Source: an uncultured Candidatus Saccharibacteria bacterium (GTDB taxonomy: Bacteria; Patescibacteriota; Saccharimonadia; Saccharimonadales; Saccharimonadaceae). Taken from it: a stretch of DNA of 47,408 nt. Position numbers and translations under genes: made by a program. Location of the stretch: positions 1 to 47,408 of the forward strand of contig CAMYZZ010000005.1 of the NCBI GenBank assembly GCA_947304135.1. Direction: 5' to 3'. Position 1 is the first letter of the stretch. Every line of letters starts with the position of its first letter. This document shows, piece after piece, positions 32,305 to 41,470 of this stretch. The notes beneath the pieces are model-generated. The model had not been told where the DNA came from and searched no databases. It worked only from the letters and a program-made list of their open reading frames with translations.

Positions 32305-32991
32305 AACAGCCGGCTGACACCCGGTTTTTCCTATGTCGCACAATCTACATTGCGCGACATTAGGGACAATAATAATTATACCGTGAGAAAGTTGGCGGAT
32401 GGGAATTGCTGGATGGTAAACAACCTAAAATATAGCCTTTCTGCCAACTCTACCCGCATTGGCGTAAACCATAGTACTAATGAGACGTTTGAGTTTAATA
32501 CGGGGACAGCGTGCGAGACTGATGGTGCATGTATTATGAATGGAAATACTGTCATGACAGAACAAGTTACGAATGGCGGCTACTACTATAGCTGGTATGC
32601 GGCTACGGCTGGCACTGGAACACCTTCTATGGCTTCTAGTGATGCTGCTGGATCTATCTGTCCAAGAGGCTGGAGATTGCCAGCTAACTACACTATAGAT
32701 CCCACTAAATCTTATGGGAGCATAACAGATGCCTACGTAAACGGCCACGGCTACATCTCGGGCAATTACGTAACTACGCTAGAATCTGTCCCGCTATCTT
32801 TTATGCGTGCCGGACAATTTCAAAGCGGGTCATTTAATAATGGTAACGTATTTAGTCTTAATTGGTCTAGTACCGCCGATGCCTCAACTGCGGGAAGGAA
32901 CCTTGCATATACTTCGACCTATTTATACTCGCAGCAATCCGACGTTAAGTATGTAGGCCGCTCTGTTCGCTGCGTGAATACTGATCTTTAG
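32305..32991 (+). pseudogene. Silent 5'-truncated copy of a FISUMP-type surface domain (alternative C-terminal cassette)
   Basis: The open frame begins after a stop at 32302 and has no promoter, Shine-Dalgarno sequence or signal peptide. From 32335 it is homologous to the C-terminal domain of the surface protein at 33027 (VAQSTLRDIRD, VRKLADGNCWMVNNLK, SICPRGWRLP, WSST, SVRCVN) but differs strongly between these blocks. The domain keeps all conserved positions, has no internal stop and ends in TAG. It looks like an intact spare cassette rather than decay. It lies tail-to-tail with the expressed gene. Its first 29 bases (32335-32363) are an exact inverted repeat of the matching bases there, in the same reading frame. 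Confidence 0.8.
32335..32363 (+). repeat. 29-bp perfect inverted repeat, copy A (silent cassette)
   Basis: Identical in reverse complement to 33622-33650. Both copies encode VAQSTLRDI in the same frame. A lower-similarity match extends about 70 bp further into each domain. Confidence 0.95.
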
Positions 32992-33026: not shown

Positions 33027-34709
33027 TTAATCATTTACACATCTCACAGAAAAACCGGCTTGTTTTCCATTGCCACAAGAGATACCCTCGCAAACAATAT
33101 TATTGCCTGAACCAATGCGCATATAGTATGCGCCTATATCGGATTGCGCAGTACTGCTCCAGTAATAGCCTCTCTCGGTTTCCCCCATGCTGCCTATATA
33201 ATACCCACGCTGAAAAAGATTAGTAGGGTTACCGGTTACATCCGCGCTGTAACCATATGCATCAGCTAAGCCCTGAAAACTCCCTGTATTGTTTCTCGTT
33301 GGCAACTTCCAGTTCTTTGGACAGATTGACGAACCTACATCGCCCGAAGTGGTAGAATAGGTACCTTGCCCCGCAGTTGCAACAATCCAACTATATAGCG
33401 TACCGAGAGTTGCATCTCCACTAGCATATAATTGCTGAGTATTTATACAAGTTTCGTCATAATCAGCACACCACCCACTAGCTGTTGACGCTGGAAGTGA
33501 ATAGCTAAGTGTAGTATCTGAGTCTGCTGAGGTAAGTGTCTTTGGCCCGGTTAGCTTCAAGTTGTTTACCATCCAACAATTCCCATCCGCCAGCTTCCTC
33601 ACCACATAAGTATTATCGTCTCTAATGTCGCGCAATGTAGATTGTGCGACGTATGGCTGGTTGTCGGCGGTGACGGTGGATTCGTAAGTTACCCTGTCGG
33701 TGATGACAGTGACGGCGCTACCAGTAGCATTGGATGGGGTGTACACTGTGTTGCAAATTGCTGTCGTCATTTGTTGCATTGTGGTGATAGTCCAGAAGTT
33801 CTGTTCCCACTGCGCGGTTAGAGTGGCTGTGCCGGTGTAGTCAATATCTCCCACAATAGTAATAGTATCGCCTGGCTGATATGTGGTAGAACCATCGCTA
33901 TAGCCGGTGAAGCCGTAGCCATCTCTGGTTGGTGCGGTAGATGGAATTGTAAAAGTATAGGAAGAAGCTACGCCAGAGTAAGTCATGGTTTCTGGGAGAC
34001 CGGAGACGCCTGTGCCACCAGGTTCAAAGTACAGCGAGTAGTCAGTTGGGACGGGGTTACCTACGGCAGAGAAAGTGAGCTGGTTTTTGTAGACACCAGA
34101 TGGTTTCTCTACGTTGACGTTCATACCAATGTAGACTGGGGTCTTAGTTCCGGCAGTTGGGGTGTCATGGGAACCTATCTGGGTTTGGACAGAGTTTGCT
34201 GGGACTGGACTGTAGGTAGCGTCATCCAAGCTGTAGGCCCATTTGTTGGCATTGGTAGTGCCTGGGGCGGCGGTAGAGAGATCAGTCTTGGAGACTGCGG
34301 CTGCTACGGTTGGGATAGTGTAGCTAGTATTGGTTTGGTTTACTAAGTCTGTGGTATAGGTACTAGTAGAAGGGTTTTGGTAGCTAGAGTTCATGTAGAG
34401 TTTGTAGCCAGTTTTGTTGGCTGTACTTACCTCTACTTTGAAGTTGTCTGTGACAAAAGTGCCGGTTGGGGCGGCGGTGGTGGAGAGGTCGAGTTCGGTA
34501 ATTTCTGCTGTGGCAGCGCTGTTCAGGATACGGATGGCGACGCCGTTGACGAGGTTGACGTTAATATCTGTATGGGACTCAGAAATGGAGAAAGCATTAG
34601 GACTGCTAGATAGGGAGCCACAAAATGACAATCCTAGACAGGAGGCACCCACAAGAATCATCGTGGCGACTAGTGTCCTATGCTTTCTCGCATTTCTGAT
34701 TATACCCAT
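33027..34709 (-). CDS. Phase-variable secreted surface protein with B-repeat and FISUMP-like C-terminal domain
   Basis: This 560-aa protein has a basic start and a signal/anchor helix (about 12-33). A Thr/Ser-rich extracellular region (about 45-250) follows. Next is one InlB/Listeria-Bacteroides-type B-repeat (TRDGYGFTGYSDGSTTYQPGD ... LTAQW). The C-terminal domain runs from residue 354, with the FISUMP-like pattern YVVRKLADGNCWMVNNL and the ending GFSVRCVND. It is probably surface-exposed and adhesive. The ATG at 34709 is preferred: it follows the -10 by 10 nt and gives a proper signal peptide. Longer in-frame starts cross the promoter and the G tract. Two variation signals, the G10 promoter tract and the invertible domain, flank it. 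Confidence 0.85.
   Translation of the reverse strand: MGIIRNARKHRTLVATMILVGASCLGLSFCGSLSSSPNAFSISESHTDINVNLVNGVAIRILNSAATAEITELDLSTTAAPTGTFVTDNFKVEVSTANKTGYKLYMNSSYQNPSTSTYTTDLVNQTNTSYTIPTVAAAVSKTDLSTAAPGTTNANKWAYSLDDATYSPVPANSVQTQIGSHDTPTAGTKTPVYIGMNVNVEKPSGVYKNQLTFSAVGNPVPTDYSLYFEPGGTGVSGLPETMTYSGVASSYTFTIPSTAPTRDGYGFTGYSDGSTTYQPGDTITIVGDIDYTGTATLTAQWEQNFWTITTMQQMTTAICNTVYTPSNATGSAVTVITDRVTYESTVTADNQPYVAQSTLRDIRDDNTYVVRKLADGNCWMVNNLKLTGPKTLTSADSDTTLSYSLPASTASGWCADYDETCINTQQLYASGDATLGTLYSWIVATAGQGTYSTTSGDVGSSICPKNWKLPTRNNTGSFQGLADAYGYSADVTGNPTNLFQRGYYIGSMGETERGYYWSSTAQSDIGAYYMRIGSGNNIVCEGISCGNGKQAGFSVRCVND
33622..33650 (-). repeat. 29-bp perfect inverted repeat, copy B (expressed gene)
   Basis: Begins at codon 354 of the surface protein. 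It is the reverse complement of 32335-32363. 1258 bp lie between the two copies. Confidence 0.95.
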
Positions 34710-34719
34710 TATGCTTTTA

Positions 34720-34750
34720 ATTGTACCCCCCCCCCGGCACGAATTGTCAA
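34720..34750 (-). promoter_or_regulatory. Phase-variable promoter: G10 tract between -35 and -10
   Basis: On the minus strand, TTGACA (forward 34745-34750), a 19-bp spacer of nine mixed bases plus ten G, and TACAAT (forward 34720-34725). Loss of two G would give the ideal 17-bp spacer. The present length predicts weak activity. Confidence 0.85.
34726..34735. repeat. Homopolymeric C/G tract of 10
   Basis: Ten C on the plus strand, lying wholly inside the surface-protein promoter spacer. I saw no comparable G/C run elsewhere in the window. Confidence 0.95.
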
Positions 34751-34771
34751 TAGGCGGTTTTGTGCTAAAAT
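34744..34771 (+). promoter_or_regulatory. Promoter of the 34778 acyltransferase, sharing its -35 with the phase-variable promoter
   Basis: TTGTCA (34744-34749), a 16-bp spacer and TAAAAT (34766-34771), then 6 nt to the GTG. The -35 boxes of the two divergent promoters overlap by five bases. Confidence 0.7.
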
Positions 34772-34777
34772 ATAAGC

Positions 34778-35533
34778 GTGAAGACATATTATTATCATGA
34801 CTTTTCCGACAACCTGGTAGAGACTAAAAATCAGTCCAAAAAAGTCCCAGAAAACTACAAATGGGTCAAGAAAAACCCCTTGTATATTGGGCTAGGCTGG
34901 ATTCTTTTTCAGATTCTAAAACTAGTTGCCCTGGTTTATGGCAAATTTGCGCTAGGTCTCAAAATTATAGGGAAAAGAAAACTCAAAATCGACTCCGGCT
35001 ATTATATTTTTGCCAACCATACTCAGCCGCTCGGCGATGTTTTTAACCCGGCGCTATATTCTGTCAAAAAGCCATATTATATTTGCGACAGTTCCAACCT
35101 TGGCATTCCAATTCTTGGGCCTATTCTGCCACTCGTTGGTGCCTTGCCGATTCCAGAATCCATCCGCGGCAAAAAGAAATTGTTTGACGCAATATCGTAT
35201 CGTGCTAAATCTGGCAACGCAATTATTATTTATCCAGAGGCCCATGTCTGGCCATATTGCACTTTTATCCGCCCGTTTGAGACAACGGCTTTTAATTTTC
35301 CAATCCGTGATAATCTTCCATCTTTCACTGCCACTACGATTTATAAAAAACGCAAATTCCGCAAAAAACCACGCACAGTTATAAAAATTGACGGCCCATT
35401 TTATCCAAATTACGACTTAGAGAAAAAGGAGCGTATAAGAGCACTACACATGGAAATTACCAACCAGCTTGTCAAGCGTACCCAAGAATCCAACATGGAA
35501 TATATTAGATACGAGAAAAAAGATTGTAATTAG
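34778..35533 (+). CDS. PlsC-like acyltransferase
   Basis: This is a membrane-associated glycerolipid acyltransferase-like protein of 251 aa. A hydrophobic helix spans about 37-60. The motif NHTQPLGD has five residues between His and Asp, one more than the classic HX4D. The later block YPEAHVWPY occupies the place of FPEG. GTG at 34778 is taken as start because a -10 box lies 6 nt upstream, the local leaderless pattern. It probably moves an acyl chain onto a lysolipid or glycolipid. The altered spacing leaves activity uncertain. Confidence 0.75.
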   Translation: MKTYYYHDFSDNLVETKNQSKKVPENYKWVKKNPLYIGLGWILFQILKLVALVYGKFALGLKIIGKRKLKIDSGYYIFANHTQPLGDVFNPALYSVKKPYYICDSSNLGIPILGPILPLVGALPIPESIRGKKKLFDAISYRAKSGNAIIIYPEAHVWPYCTFIRPFETTAFNFPIRDNLPSFTATTIYKKRKFRKKPRTVIKIDGPFYPNYDLEKKERIRALHMEITNQLVKRTQESNMEYIRYEKKDCN

Positions 35534-35620
35534 GTTTTAGAGCGTGTAGAGCCTTCAGCACCGTCAAACGTGCCGGTGGCACGTTTGTGGCCACGCTCAC
35601 AAAACCTAATTAATCTTTTT
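35521..35620. terminator. Nested palindrome ending two convergent acyltransferase genes
   Basis: The outer arms AATTAGGTTTT and AAAACCTAATT contain both stop codons. A middle match GAGCGTG/CACGCTC and an inner perfect hairpin AAACGTGCC-GGT-GGCACGTTT (35566-35586) follow. T-rich ends on both strands suit a bidirectional terminator, though the structure is much larger than needed. Confidence 0.75.
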
Positions 35621-36472
35621 TCGATAATTAGCTATATCAGAATCTTCAAAGACATAATTAAGCTTCTTGCCGTAGGCTTTTTCGTATGCCGCTTTTTTGA
35701 GCTCGTAATCTTTCGCCGCCATTTCTATACTATTTGCCCGCACCGATTTAGCCGGATCTGGATATATCGGCTCCAAAATATGGATGATGTATTCTGACTC
35801 AAAAAACTCATCGTTGTCTGGGCGGTCTGTATCTAAAATTTCTACAAAGCAGGGAAGAACCGGAACATTTAGCTCGGCCGCAAAATAAAATGCGCCACGT
35901 TTGTTCGTGCGGGGTTTACGGTAGTTAAACCACATTTCTTCTTCTGGGTAGATAAGGATTGGGTAACCCGCATCCAAAGTCTCGCGCATATGGTCTATAA
36001 ACTCTCCACGGATATAATGTGTGCTTTTGGAAACAGGAATATGGTTGAGATAATTAAATAGTTCACCAATCACGCCACCCGCCGCCAGGTTGCTCGCCTG
36101 AATAACAATGTATGGCTCTTTTCCATAGGCCTTTTTGGTCATTTTTTTGACGCACAAATTGTCTAGCGGATTAAAATGATTTGAAGTGATGATGAAACGC
36201 GGCTCTTTTAGCCCTTTCAAGTTTTCTAACCCTTCTACTCGAATTAGCTTATCATAAGCTTTGGCCTGAGCATCATTCATTTTTTGCATCGCTCGATGCT
36301 TCATTTTGTAGCCAATCTTCTTACGTGCTGCAAAAAAGCGTGAGACCAGTTTTGCTTCTTGCTCTGCAGAAAGTGCCGCGTCACCCTCTTCGACTTTACG
36401 ATTCAAATCACCATCAAAAAGCGCCTGCTTGATATTTGATATGACGCGTTCCTTGCTGCCGCCGATTATCAT
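35606..36472 (-). CDS. PlsC-like (LPLAT) acyltransferase
   Basis: This 288-aa protein has a standard LPLAT HX4D motif (NHFNPLD) and the partner block LIYPEEEMWFNYR, matching the acceptor-binding FPEG region. A middle segment, PYIVIQASNLAAGGVIG, may sit at the membrane. The start at 36472 overlaps the stop of the GT8 gene as ATGA. Longer in-frame starts lie within that gene. It is the third gene of the GT8-GT8-LPLAT operon, which suggests a lipid carrying a sugar head group and an extra acyl chain. Confidence 0.82.
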   Translation of the reverse strand: MIIGGSKERVISNIKQALFDGDLNRKVEEGDAALSAEQEAKLVSRFFAARKKIGYKMKHRAMQKMNDAQAKAYDKLIRVEGLENLKGLKEPRFIITSNHFNPLDNLCVKKMTKKAYGKEPYIVIQASNLAAGGVIGELFNYLNHIPVSKSTHYIRGEFIDHMRETLDAGYPILIYPEEEMWFNYRKPRTNKRGAFYFAAELNVPVLPCFVEILDTDRPDNDEFFESEYIIHILEPIYPDPAKSVRANSIEMAAKDYELKKAAYEKAYGKKLNYVFEDSDIANYRKKIN

Positions 36473-37611
36473 TTTTCGTCTTTCTTGGAGCCAATCTTTG
36501 CGCTTGCATCTTTCAAAATTTCTGCGCCTTTTTTGATAGTCATCAGCGGCAAAGTAATCGGAAGTGCAGAAATTTTTAGCGTAGTGCGAACAACCGTCCT
36601 CCAACCCCAGCTGGTCTCGACAATAGCATATTCTTCTTTGACTGGGCGCCCTGCGCGAACCTCATCACCAGACTCAAACACCTTTTTGAAGGTGGTTTTT
36701 TCTTTGTGTGCGCGCACCGCATGCGCCACCATCTCGCCAAGATATTTCATGTCATCTTCATAGCTGTGCGGCATTGCCTTGATTGCATTGATCTCTTTTA
36801 GAAGTGGCGACTCGCCCGCATAGCGCCAAAAGTATGCGTCATAATCGATATTGTCGTAGTGCCATGGCTTGAAATATAAATTGTAGTGAACAATCCCTGG
36901 GTTTTCCATCGGCGGGACGTCTTTAGCTGGCATCGCATCCCATTTCGAATCGAGTAGTTTTACGCGTTTGTAACACATCGCATTGAGATAATCTTGGTCT
37001 GGTGCCACCGTGTCAAAATCATAACGCACCATCAGATAGAGGAAGTGCTCATCAAATTTGAGATGACGCATTTCCGCAAGGTTTAAAAGTAGTACTCCAG
37101 AGTTGAAATACTCATCGCGTGGGATACCAACCACCTTCTCGATATAGCTCATGAATTCTTTGTTTTTCTTAATCGAAAAATCATTCACCGCACCGAGCAA
37201 GTATTTTTTGCCAAGATTGACATTATAAAGTTCAGAAATATCACCCGTCACCACCGTGTCAGAATCAAGATAAATACCTTTGTCAAACTGCGGGAACATC
37301 TGTGCGATAAAAATACGATAATAGATCGTAAGCGTAAACATACTTGCATTAAGCCTCGTGTTTGGACGCTCTGTCATAAAATCAAGCACCTCGCGCATCG
37401 GCTTTAGATGTAGCTTGGCGTCTTTTTCGCGCAGCACGCGCATGGTTTTGAGCTTGGTAATAGTCTTGAGGCTCATTTTGTCGTAAACTACAAAAATCTC
37501 ATAAGCATAGTCTGGGCTAGCGTTTTTGAGTAGGGAAATAATAGACACGGAAAGAAACGGCGCATAGTTCTCGTCCGCCGTATAGAAAATTGGAATTACT
37601 GGTTTTTTCAC
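36469..37611 (-). CDS. GT8-family glycosyltransferase
   Basis: This GT-A retaining glycosyltransferase (380 aa) resembles LPS galactosyl/glucosyltransferases. The start is PIFYTADENYAPFLSVSIISLL, and the DxD metal motif is YLDSDTVV. The acceptor blocks are YFNSGVLLLNL and DQDYLNAM, with HYNLYFKPW near the end. The C-terminal 90 residues are basic with a hydrophobic helix (SALPITLPLMTI), a likely membrane tether. GTG at 37611 is chosen because AAGGAGG lies 4 nt upstream and the GTGA overlaps the previous stop. Confidence 0.88.
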   Translation of the reverse strand: MKKPVIPIFYTADENYAPFLSVSIISLLKNASPDYAYEIFVVYDKMSLKTITKLKTMRVLREKDAKLHLKPMREVLDFMTERPNTRLNASMFTLTIYYRIFIAQMFPQFDKGIYLDSDTVVTGDISELYNVNLGKKYLLGAVNDFSIKKNKEFMSYIEKVVGIPRDEYFNSGVLLLNLAEMRHLKFDEHFLYLMVRYDFDTVAPDQDYLNAMCYKRVKLLDSKWDAMPAKDVPPMENPGIVHYNLYFKPWHYDNIDYDAYFWRYAGESPLLKEINAIKAMPHSYEDDMKYLGEMVAHAVRAHKEKTTFKKVFESGDEVRAGRPVKEEYAIVETSWGWRTVVRTTLKISALPITLPLMTIKKGAEILKDASAKIGSKKDEK

Positions 37612-38438
37612 GCTACCTCCTTGTGCGCCTTTAATTTTTGCCATTCTTCTAGTACGTCATCGAACTGATGATATCCCAGAATATCATGGACTTTTTCTAC
37701 GTCCCAAGGCTTAATTTTTATCACCTTAAAATATGGGAAAAATTTAAATGTATTTGAAAAATGCCTAAATACTGTTTCTGGCAAAATTTCTTTTTGATCA
37801 TTAAATTTCTTGTCTACTATTTTCTTATATTTTACCGAAAAATTCAAGGCTGATTGGTCTGGCATAATCATCCAACGCTTGCGGCACATCTCGCGTGCTT
37901 TATAAAAAAGCCCGGTTTTTCTAATCAATGGCAAATTAAGGAGCAATACTCCAGAATTAATATATTTTTGACGTGTAAAAGGAAACCGAATAATCTTGCC
38001 GCCGTAGCGGTCTAACACGCCCACCATCTCGTATTTAGAATTATCAATCTCATAAAATTCCATTGGATCGTTCAAACAAACAATATCCGTATCCAGATAC
38101 AAAATCTTATCCGGCACCTCTGGAATCTGATCTGCATAGAGCCGCAGCATGCAATACGGCGTAAAATACGATCTGCGATTTGCCGTGGCAGGCTCTTTTT
38201 TATATAGCTCCGTTACATCAATTACCTTAATAAAACTATCGCGGTTTTTGGCTTTTAATTTTTTATCCAAAAAAGAAACGTCGCTCTGCAATATCGGTTG
38301 GTATTTTTTGCCCGGAAGCGAAAAGACCATCGTGAGGACATATACCCGAATCGGCTCGCTTGTATGCTTCAGTAAAGACAAAACCGAAATCGTCAGACCA
38401 TCCAAAATATTCTTGTCGCCGCAATACATTACGTCCAT
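37608..38438 (-). CDS. GT8-family glycosyltransferase
   Basis: This 276-aa GT8 enzyme opens MDVMYCGDKNILDGLTISVLSLL. It has the DxD motif YLDTDIV, YINSGVLLLNL, and DQSALNF. The C-terminus lacks the membrane tail of its neighbour. It is the first gene of the operon and is expressed from a -10 box (forward 38445-38450) exactly 6 nt before the ATG. Donor and acceptor are not evident. The pairing with a second GT8 and an acyltransferase points to envelope glycolipid or polysaccharide assembly. Confidence 0.88.
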   Translation of the reverse strand: MDVMYCGDKNILDGLTISVLSLLKHTSEPIRVYVLTMVFSLPGKKYQPILQSDVSFLDKKLKAKNRDSFIKVIDVTELYKKEPATANRRSYFTPYCMLRLYADQIPEVPDKILYLDTDIVCLNDPMEFYEIDNSKYEMVGVLDRYGGKIIRFPFTRQKYINSGVLLLNLPLIRKTGLFYKAREMCRKRWMIMPDQSALNFSVKYKKIVDKKFNDQKEILPETVFRHFSNTFKFFPYFKVIKIKPWDVEKVHDILGYHQFDDVLEEWQKLKAHKEVA

Positions 38439-40042: not shown

Positions 40043-40263
40043 AAGACGATGTTATTAAACTAATTTCAAAAACTCTAGAAATAGACCCAGCCGACCTAAA
40101 CGACGATACCGACCTCATGCAAGACCTCGGCGTAGAGTCTATCGACCTCGTTGACCTTGTCACGGCTTTTGAAGACAAATACCATCTAGAGATTCCAGAC
40201 AACGAACTCAAAAATTTGCGGACTGTCGGCGATATTGTAAAATATGCCGAAAGTCACAAATAA
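40039..40263 (+). CDS. Acyl carrier protein
   Basis: This 74-aa four-helix carrier has the phosphopantetheine site in DLGVESIDLVDLV. The usual DSL reads ESI, and the serine is kept. The acidic composition is typical. It overlaps the acyl-activating gene by 4 bp, with GGAGG upstream. The transferase at 10813 could charge it. No fatty-acid synthase genes are visible in the window. Confidence 0.92.
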   Translation: MKDDVIKLISKTLEIDPADLNDDTDLMQDLGVESIDLVDLVTAFEDKYHLEIPDNELKNLRTVGDIVKYAESHK

Positions 40264-40266
40264 TGA

Positions 40267-40282
40267 TATAATATATTATATG
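40267..40282 (+). promoter_or_regulatory. -10 box and leaderless start of the sortase gene
   Basis: TATAAT at 40267-40272, 7 nt before the ATG at 40280. Confidence 0.65.
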
Positions 40283-41470
40283 GATAATAGTGCCGGTGGG
40301 AAGCTTGGAGATAAGAGCCGTCAAACTGCCGCGGAAATAGCGCGGAAGAAAGTTTTGGCTGCCTATGACAAAAGACGCGAAAAAACCTACCGCGAAATGG
40401 GCAAAACCGCCGAGAACATTGTCGGCGGCACTTATAAACAAGTTCCCATCAATGCCAACGTTACTAGGGACAGAGAAAACAGAGGCGAGTGGCAAAAATA
40501 TCATTCTGCCTGGCAAAACTATTATCAAAAATACTACAATGATTATTATTCCAAAGCGGCCAAATCTTATCTAGAAAACGAGAAACTAAAACAAGCCCGC
40601 TCGTTTGAAGACCACAAAAGAAATTCTGGTGGCGTCATTTTAGAAAACCCCCAAGCCCCAGTCAATCCAACAGTCAGCGAAGAGGCCACTATTATTTCCG
40701 ACCTCAAACAGACCATCAAAAAGCACGCCAAAAAGCAAGCAGGGAAAAGCCACAAAAAACTTATCCCAATTTTTGCCGCTATCATCGCAGTCCTCATTGT
40801 TATTTTCTTGCAATACAACCGTCTGCTTTTTGCTCCAATCATGGCCTATGTCTCGCCAGGGAACTCATCAGACGACGGCATCACCGCACTCGACCCAACT
40901 ATCACTACCGCAGTTTCTGCCGACAATCGCCTGATGATTCCAAAACTCAACGTCGACGTGCCGGTCAGCTTTGGTATTAGCAATGATACCGCCACAGTCA
41001 ATGCCGCCATGGAAACCGGCGTAGCCCACTTTATGATTCCTGGCGCCAGCGCCCTCCCAGGCGAAATCGGCAACCTCGTCATCACAGGCCACTCTGCCGG
41101 CGATATTTATAGCAACATTCAATACAAATTTATCTTCTCTGGCCTAGAACGTCTCGTAGACGGCGACCTCATTTACATTGATTACCAAGGCACGCGCTAT
41201 ACTTATTCTGTCGTCGGCAAAGAAACCGTCGAACCATCAGAGGTCTCCAAGCTAGTTTACGACACCGACAAGCCAATGCTAACCCTAGTAACCTGCACCC
41301 CGCTTGGCACCTCTCGTTATCGCCTGCTTGTCTCCGCCGAACAAATCAACCCAACCCCGTCTGGCGCCACCCAGCAGGAGCAGGCCGACGAAGGCTCGAG
41401 CGAAGTCATGCCACAAAACGAACCAACCTTCTTTGAAAGAATCTGGAATTTCTTAACCGGACGCAGCTAA
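40280..41470 (+). CDS. Sortase with long cytoplasmic N-terminal region
   Basis: This membrane transpeptidase anchors surface proteins to the cell wall or pilin subunits to each other. A charged region of about 155 residues precedes the single membrane helix (about 160-185). The sortase barrel then shows the catalytic His in VITGHSAGD, Cys in LTLVTCTPLG and Arg in TSRYRLLV. A Pro/Glu/Gln tail follows. The N-terminal extension, with many Lys, Tyr and Arg, is unusual for sortases. No LPxTG-type signal is evident in the proteins of this window. The in-frame ATG at 40244 lies within the ACP gene and was rejected. Confidence 0.9.
   Translation: MDNSAGGKLGDKSRQTAAEIARKKVLAAYDKRREKTYREMGKTAENIVGGTYKQVPINANVTRDRENRGEWQKYHSAWQNYYQKYYNDYYSKAAKSYLENEKLKQARSFEDHKRNSGGVILENPQAPVNPTVSEEATIISDLKQTIKKHAKKQAGKSHKKLIPIFAAIIAVLIVIFLQYNRLLFAPIMAYVSPGNSSDDGITALDPTITTAVSADNRLMIPKLNVDVPVSFGISNDTATVNAAMETGVAHFMIPGASALPGEIGNLVITGHSAGDIYSNIQYKFIFSGLERLVDGDLIYIDYQGTRYTYSVVGKETVEPSEVSKLVYDTDKPMLTLVTCTPLGTSRYRLLVSAEQINPTPSGATQQEQADEGSSEVMPQNEPTFFERIWNFLTGRS

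Follow-up and report, generated by a model that had tools for sequence, protein, structure and literature searches.

A probable poly-G promoter-spacer switch upstream of a putative surface-protein gene in a Saccharibacterium

A run of ten G residues was found between the −35 and −10 hexamers of a gene encoding a FISUMP-domain protein in the window, by which we mean the whole 47,408-nt stretch of DNA that was analysed. The window is contig 5 (C5) of a source genome of 711,455 bases in 22 contigs that is 96.7% complete. Comparison within this genome and across its genus makes it very probable that the tract is a promoter-spacer contingency (phase-variation) element, a transcriptional switch resembling those of porA and tp0126. 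The mechanism is of a known kind, and its occurrence in this phylum is apparently unreported, as no report of Saccharibacteria, Patescibacteria or CPR with phase variation by this mechanism was found in the open-access literature that was searched.

The promoter and the gene behind it

The original prediction had placed TTGACA and TACAAT 19 bp apart, with a spacer ending in ten G, and its coordinates hold exactly. The promoter and the two genes that diverge from it are laid out as follows, with positions given in the window.

34745–34750, minus strand: −35 hexamer TTGACA, 6/6 to consensus; an exact copy precedes the paralogue on contig C3
34726–34744, minus strand: promoter spacer of 19 bp, composed of ATTCGTGCC and GGGGGGGGGG (G10)
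34726–34735, minus strand: G10 homopolymer (C10 on the plus strand) abutting the −10; the proposed slippage site
34720–34725, minus strand: −10 hexamer TACAAT, 5/6 to consensus; conserved in the C3 copy
34744–34771, plus strand: promoter TTGTCA-16-TAAAAT of the divergent neighbour, with −35 bases in common
33027–34709, minus strand: putatively controlled gene, encoding a 560-aa predicted secreted surface protein with a FISUMP C-terminal domain (PF09603, E = 4e-09; TIGR02145, E = 3.6e-14)
34778–35533, plus strand: acyltransferase-like divergent gene with a GTG start (PF01553, E = 3.4e-04, below the curated cut-off), outside the control of the tract

On the plus strand, positions 34726–34735 are exactly ten C, with A and G as flanks. 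The arrangement TTGACA-9nt-G10-TACAAT places a homopolymer of more than the eight residues that we took as a minimum between a recognisable −35 and −10, and a change in its length would carry the spacing across the optimum of ~17 bp, as G10 gives 19 bp and G8 gives 17 bp. The spacer count also bears out the earlier claim that changes of one or two G would take the spacing through 17–18 bp. This 19-bp promoter was missing from the promoter scan because only spacers of 16–18 bp were allowed there. A second −10-like sequence on the minus strand, TATAAT, starts 4 bases inside the ORF. It was rejected as the main promoter, being without a −35 and reading TATAAC in the C3 copy.

Ten nucleotides, TAAAAGCATA, separate TACAAT from the ATG (34709–34707, minus strand), and a transcript from this −10 (34720–34725) would, at that distance, be nearly leaderless. 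From ATG 34709 the protein begins with a signal-peptide-like N-terminus, MGIIRNARKHRTLVATMILVGASCLGLSF, and its FISUMP domain passes the curated cut-offs (53.8 versus 41.65 bits for TIGR02145 and 37.4 versus 33.9 bits for PF09603). These two features point to a secreted product that is presumably located at the surface. Four distant relatives of the protein came from named genomes: one from a Nomurabacteria MAG and three from ruminant-gut MAGs of Candidatus Saccharibacteria, which makes Saccharibacteria the probable placement of the source genome. On the other side, the divergent TTGTCA-16-TAAAAT is followed by 6 nt and then the GTG. Since TTGTCA (34744–34749, plus strand) overlaps TTGACA (minus strand), a single −35 serves both promoters, which face away from each other, and the shared bases (34744–34750) would leave room for one polymerase at a time.

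Tracts in the paralogue family and across the genus

In the whole 711-kb genome, G/C runs with a length of at least 8 numbered only four (10 on C5, 10 on C3, 9 on C10 and 10 on C4). There were 2 runs of exactly 7 G/C where base composition predicts about 29, a shortfall that indicates a general avoidance of long G runs in this genome. The N-terminal part of the C5 protein had 13 matches in the genome, which make up one surface-protein family, and all four long runs were located at the 5′ ends of its members. In the C5, C3 and C10a members the run was in the promoter, directly before the −10, and in the C4 member it was in the signal-peptide codons. The 13 members of the N-terminal-domain family are distributed over contigs C1, C3, C4, C5, C8, C9, C10, C11 and C13, which is a marked expansion given that the genome is reduced to 711 kb; genome G032 had 19 matches.

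The 17-mer TTGACAATTCGTGCCGG followed by G10-TACAAT had a second, identical occurrence before the paralogue on contig C3. The C3 and C5 copies are recent, to judge from a homology that starts with the initial T of the −35 and reaches 97% over 773 bp. The C4 member (L114:235–2031, minus strand) had C10 in its signal-peptide codons (G000 C4:1916–1925) and a tract-free promoter upstream, TTGACA-17-TACAAT-10nt-ATG. Its −10 and −10-to-start distance were identical to those of C5, but its spacing was the textbook 17 bp, which would make it a natural counterpart of the predicted ON geometry. The C4 paralogue is itself likely to be translationally phase-variable via C10. A tract-free member on C10 (C10b) had TTGACT-18-TAAAAT-10nt-ATG. 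As far as layout can tell, one family shows the arrangements of both transcriptional and translational homopolymer switching.

Across 174 genomes of the genus, the pattern GGGGGGGGTANAAT, in which G8 or more directly abuts TANAAT, gave 59 matches in 34 genomes. A reversed control pattern gave 2 matches in these 174 genomes, and the poly-C version abutting the −10, CCCCCCCCTANAAT, gave 0 matches in the genus genomes. The strand bias was strict genus-wide, with poly-G and not poly-C abutting the −10 on the coding strand. All 59 sites were read, and 56 had usable upstream sequence; at 37 of these 56 the upstream DNA matched TTGACA in at least 5/6 positions at a suitable distance, as did 5.5% of shuffled upstream sequences. 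Run lengths were 8 to 20, mostly 9 and 10. The spacers of the 37 tract promoters were 14 bp (1), 15 bp (9), 16 bp (6), 17 bp (5), 18 bp (5), 19 bp (10) and 20 bp (1), with 15 and 19 bp each more frequent than 17 bp. Tract-free promoters of similar definition in the same DNA (n = 30, range 14–20 bp) had spacers of 15 bp (2), 16 bp (3), 17 bp (24) and 19 bp (1). The comparison of 17 bp versus any other spacer between tract and tract-free promoters gave a Fisher p = 5e-8, a value that is indicative as neither set is phylogenetically independent. The excess at 15 and 19 fits OFF states, but it could also reflect another optimum for G-tract DNA.

Downstream of the tract promoters, 45 ORFs were scanned and 8 had FISUMP domains. 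Other domains were TM2, Listeria-Bacteroides repeats, DUF285, SpaA, papain-like protease and GNAT acetyltransferases, and many of the ORFs began with a signal-peptide-like segment as judged by crude hydropathy only. Two further observations were counted against a switch, namely that some genus matches had a poor −35 or were without a clear downstream gene, and that the exact match occurred in only 34 of the 174 species genomes. Beyond the genus, the arrangement was present in 16 of the 220 remaining genomes that were covered in the family; among about 110 genomes belonging to other families of the class, only two had it. The C5 promoter core had five matches outside its own genome among 99 genus genomes, all with 2 mismatches; only the one in G072 was a G-tract promoter, and the other four, in unrelated contexts, were discarded. 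Not every G run is of the promoter kind, since among 30 exact-G9 runs read in the genus, 7 were promoter-spacer tracts by a loose test and 5 by a strict test, and the rest were coding or intergenic. Exact G9 runs in L117, L122 and L139 fell inside roughly the first 30 codons of ORFs, which suggests further coding-tract switches. Many tract promoters (L018, L042, L044, L046, L047, L057 and others) had in common a motif like GCATAAAGGTTATACATAAA 10–25 nt after the −10, where the C5 and C3 copies had GCATAATGGGTATAA.

Slippage of the tract and alternative readings

Both tract promoters on C5 and C3 had G10 in the one assembly, with no length difference between them. Copies elsewhere in the genus did differ. 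Within one genome, L023 had G10 and L052 had G9, with upstream flanks identical at 24/24 positions and downstream flanks at 97%, and the near-identical promoter copies L028 and L056, also in one genome, had G15 and G10 with 100% upstream and 95% downstream identity, lengths that are all subject to the possible misreporting of homopolymers in a MAG consensus. The putative orthologues L064 (G8) and L065 (G9) from two species had flank identities of 79% and 75%. An apparent paralogue pair, L046 and L047 (G16 and G13), was dropped as its upstream sequence was masked N. The assemblies break at some tracts, and contig ends or N runs adjoined several of the genus matches. A profile search of the 96.7% complete source genome found no MutS_V or MutL-type domain, while the same searches were positive in 11 of 14 control genomes. 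MutS and MutL are likely absent from this genome.

In the switch that we propose, replication slippage would add or remove G residues in G10, and these changes would stay uncorrected in a cell without MutS and MutL. The number of G would shift the distance between the −35 and the −10 and in that way alter the use of the promoter by RNA polymerase, with the 19-bp spacing of G10 predicted to be weak and the 18- or 17-bp spacing after the loss of one or two G predicted to be strong. The outcome would be a mixed population in which cells differ in their level of the secreted FISUMP protein. An identical switch would be present in the C3 copy and a related one in C10a, while C4 would have a translational version with C10 in the signal peptide. 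By the 17-bp rule of the published cases, the assembled G10 state is predicted to be weak rather than ON, and G8 strong. We infer that the promoter is used, that expression changes in this direction, that switching takes place within strains and that it has a role in surface variation. The claim of a slipped-strand on/off switch is supported as far as the switch is concerned, given the recurrence in the genus, the scatter of spacers, the length differences between paralogues, the probable loss of MutS/MutL and the restriction to one family, while the response may be on/off or graded.

A DNA-shape effect is less likely than a switch. The G run would then be a fixed structural spacer, A-form-like or bound by a regulator, that tunes the promoter. 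The strict strand bias leaves room for such an effect, as does the scarcity of 17-bp spacers, which peak at 15 and 19 instead, and poly-G length effects at T. pallidum tprL are unexplained by spacing (PMC7864442). However, the run length varies from 8 to 20 and differs between near-identical paralogues, and the G run can hardly be stable in a genome that avoids long runs elsewhere and in which a search for mismatch repair genes found none. We consider the fixed spacer improbable. A translational switch at C5, in which the real start is ATG 34787, the tract encodes Gly-Gly-Gly and slippage puts the gene out of frame, is very unlikely. No stop codon interrupts the frame between 34787 and the end of the tract, the ORF finder extends the 33027–34709 gene to 34787, and a tract inside the translated region is what the C4 paralogue has. 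At C5 the tract is outside it: homology with C3 starts only where the −35 does, the signal peptide fits ATG 34709, and the −35 and −10 are correctly placed. The C3 copy has no ATG, GTG or TTG upstream in its open frame and so cannot be translated through the tract, which contradicts a translational switch. Equally hard to credit is a random G run between promoter-like boxes, by chance or as an assembly artefact. In its favour, sigma-70-like matches are frequent in the region (16 found versus 10.5 expected) and MAG assemblies fail at G runs. Against it, all four runs are in one gene family, an exact paralogous copy lies on another contig and the pattern recurs in the genus at 59 sites, where the two controls gave 2 and 0; G10 is not due to chance.

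Pathogens offer many well-studied cases of phase variation, and cultivated Saccharibacteria live on other bacteria. With transcriptional switching as the preferred reading, these Saccharibacteria probably vary their surface at random, much like Neisseria and the syphilis spirochaetes, which may bear on how Saccharibacteria recognise and change hosts. The list of G-tract promoters marks genes that are likely to be varied and can be checked by read counts in existing metagenomes. It also carries a warning, as a MAG consensus freezes one state of a mixed population.

The alternative C-terminus and known systems

The same gene had been said to carry a C-terminal domain that looks invertible, and a structural basis for this was found in a pair of inverted arms.

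33556–33653: right arm of the inverted repeat, 98 nt, 88%; located within the gene where the FISUMP domain begins
32332–32429: left arm of the inverted repeat; begins the opposite-facing cassette
32350–32991, plus strand: alternative FISUMP C-terminal cassette, opposite-facing and without its own signal peptide (PF09603, E = 9.8e-13)

If the arms recombined, one C-terminal domain would be exchanged for the other. The C3 paralogue had the same inverted layout (L069 5306–5391 and 6481–6566), with arms that were 98.8% alike, and in both C5 and C3 the inverted repeats flank an alternative 3′ coding end. Each assembly had one orientation of the cassette. A serine recombinase domain was found elsewhere in the genome (C3:22070–22342). 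It is plausible from this layout that expression level and domain type vary independently. We give an even chance to the broadest reading, namely that these ultrasmall episymbiotic Saccharibacteria have a poly-G contingency system that spans the genus, with dozens of promoters, many of them of surface-protein genes, with coding-tract versions in the same family and, in this genome, with two loci coupled to an invertible C-terminus. Cells lacking mismatch repair would then vary a putative host-contact protein in level and in type, each independently of the other.

The Bordetella fim2/fim3 promoters have poly-C tracts and show transcriptional phase variation. Bordetella had been offered as a model, but the genus studied here has no poly-C version, and the closest systems are Neisseria porA and Treponema pallidum tp0126. 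The fim2/fim3 promoters and Neisseria fetA resemble C5 in having a homopolymer in the core promoter and differ from it in their poly-C, which in this genus never abuts the −10; fetA is the poly-C core-promoter equivalent with transcriptional phase variation (PMC13293289). As summarised in PMC7864442, porA of Neisseria meningitidis has poly-G in the spacer before a surface-protein gene, its spacing moves around 17 bp, and transcription is lost below 17. Unlike porA, C5 belongs to another phylum, encodes an unrelated protein, has its start codon only 10 nt after the −10 and also has an invertible-looking 3′ end. The same source describes tp0126, an OmpW homologue, with poly-G between the −35 and −10 and best transcription at a spacing of 17 nt (PMC7864442); this gene encodes a signal peptide, and its annotated frame wrongly ran through the promoter, the same error that the ORF finder makes at C5. 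In the host-associated spirochaete only one outer-membrane protein, tp0126, is concerned, whereas the tracts described here form a multi-locus, genus-wide set, seen in an ultrasmall Saccharibacterium. The Ureaplasma MBA locus (PMC3047005) likewise concerns a surface protein with an alternative part swapped at inverted repeats; at C5 inversion is a prediction from the layout, and the repeats are joined to a promoter poly-G on the same gene. Within the CPR, what comes closest is a published Gracilibacterium gene with a hypervariable 9-mer repeat (PMC6851277), a device of another sort.

The window that holds the surface-protein locus also encodes a sortase-domain protein at 40244–41470 (PF04203, E = 9.7e-23). 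Adjoining the locus, two GT8 glycosyltransferases and a second acyltransferase are found at 35606–38438, and these genes are perhaps a surface glycolipid cluster.
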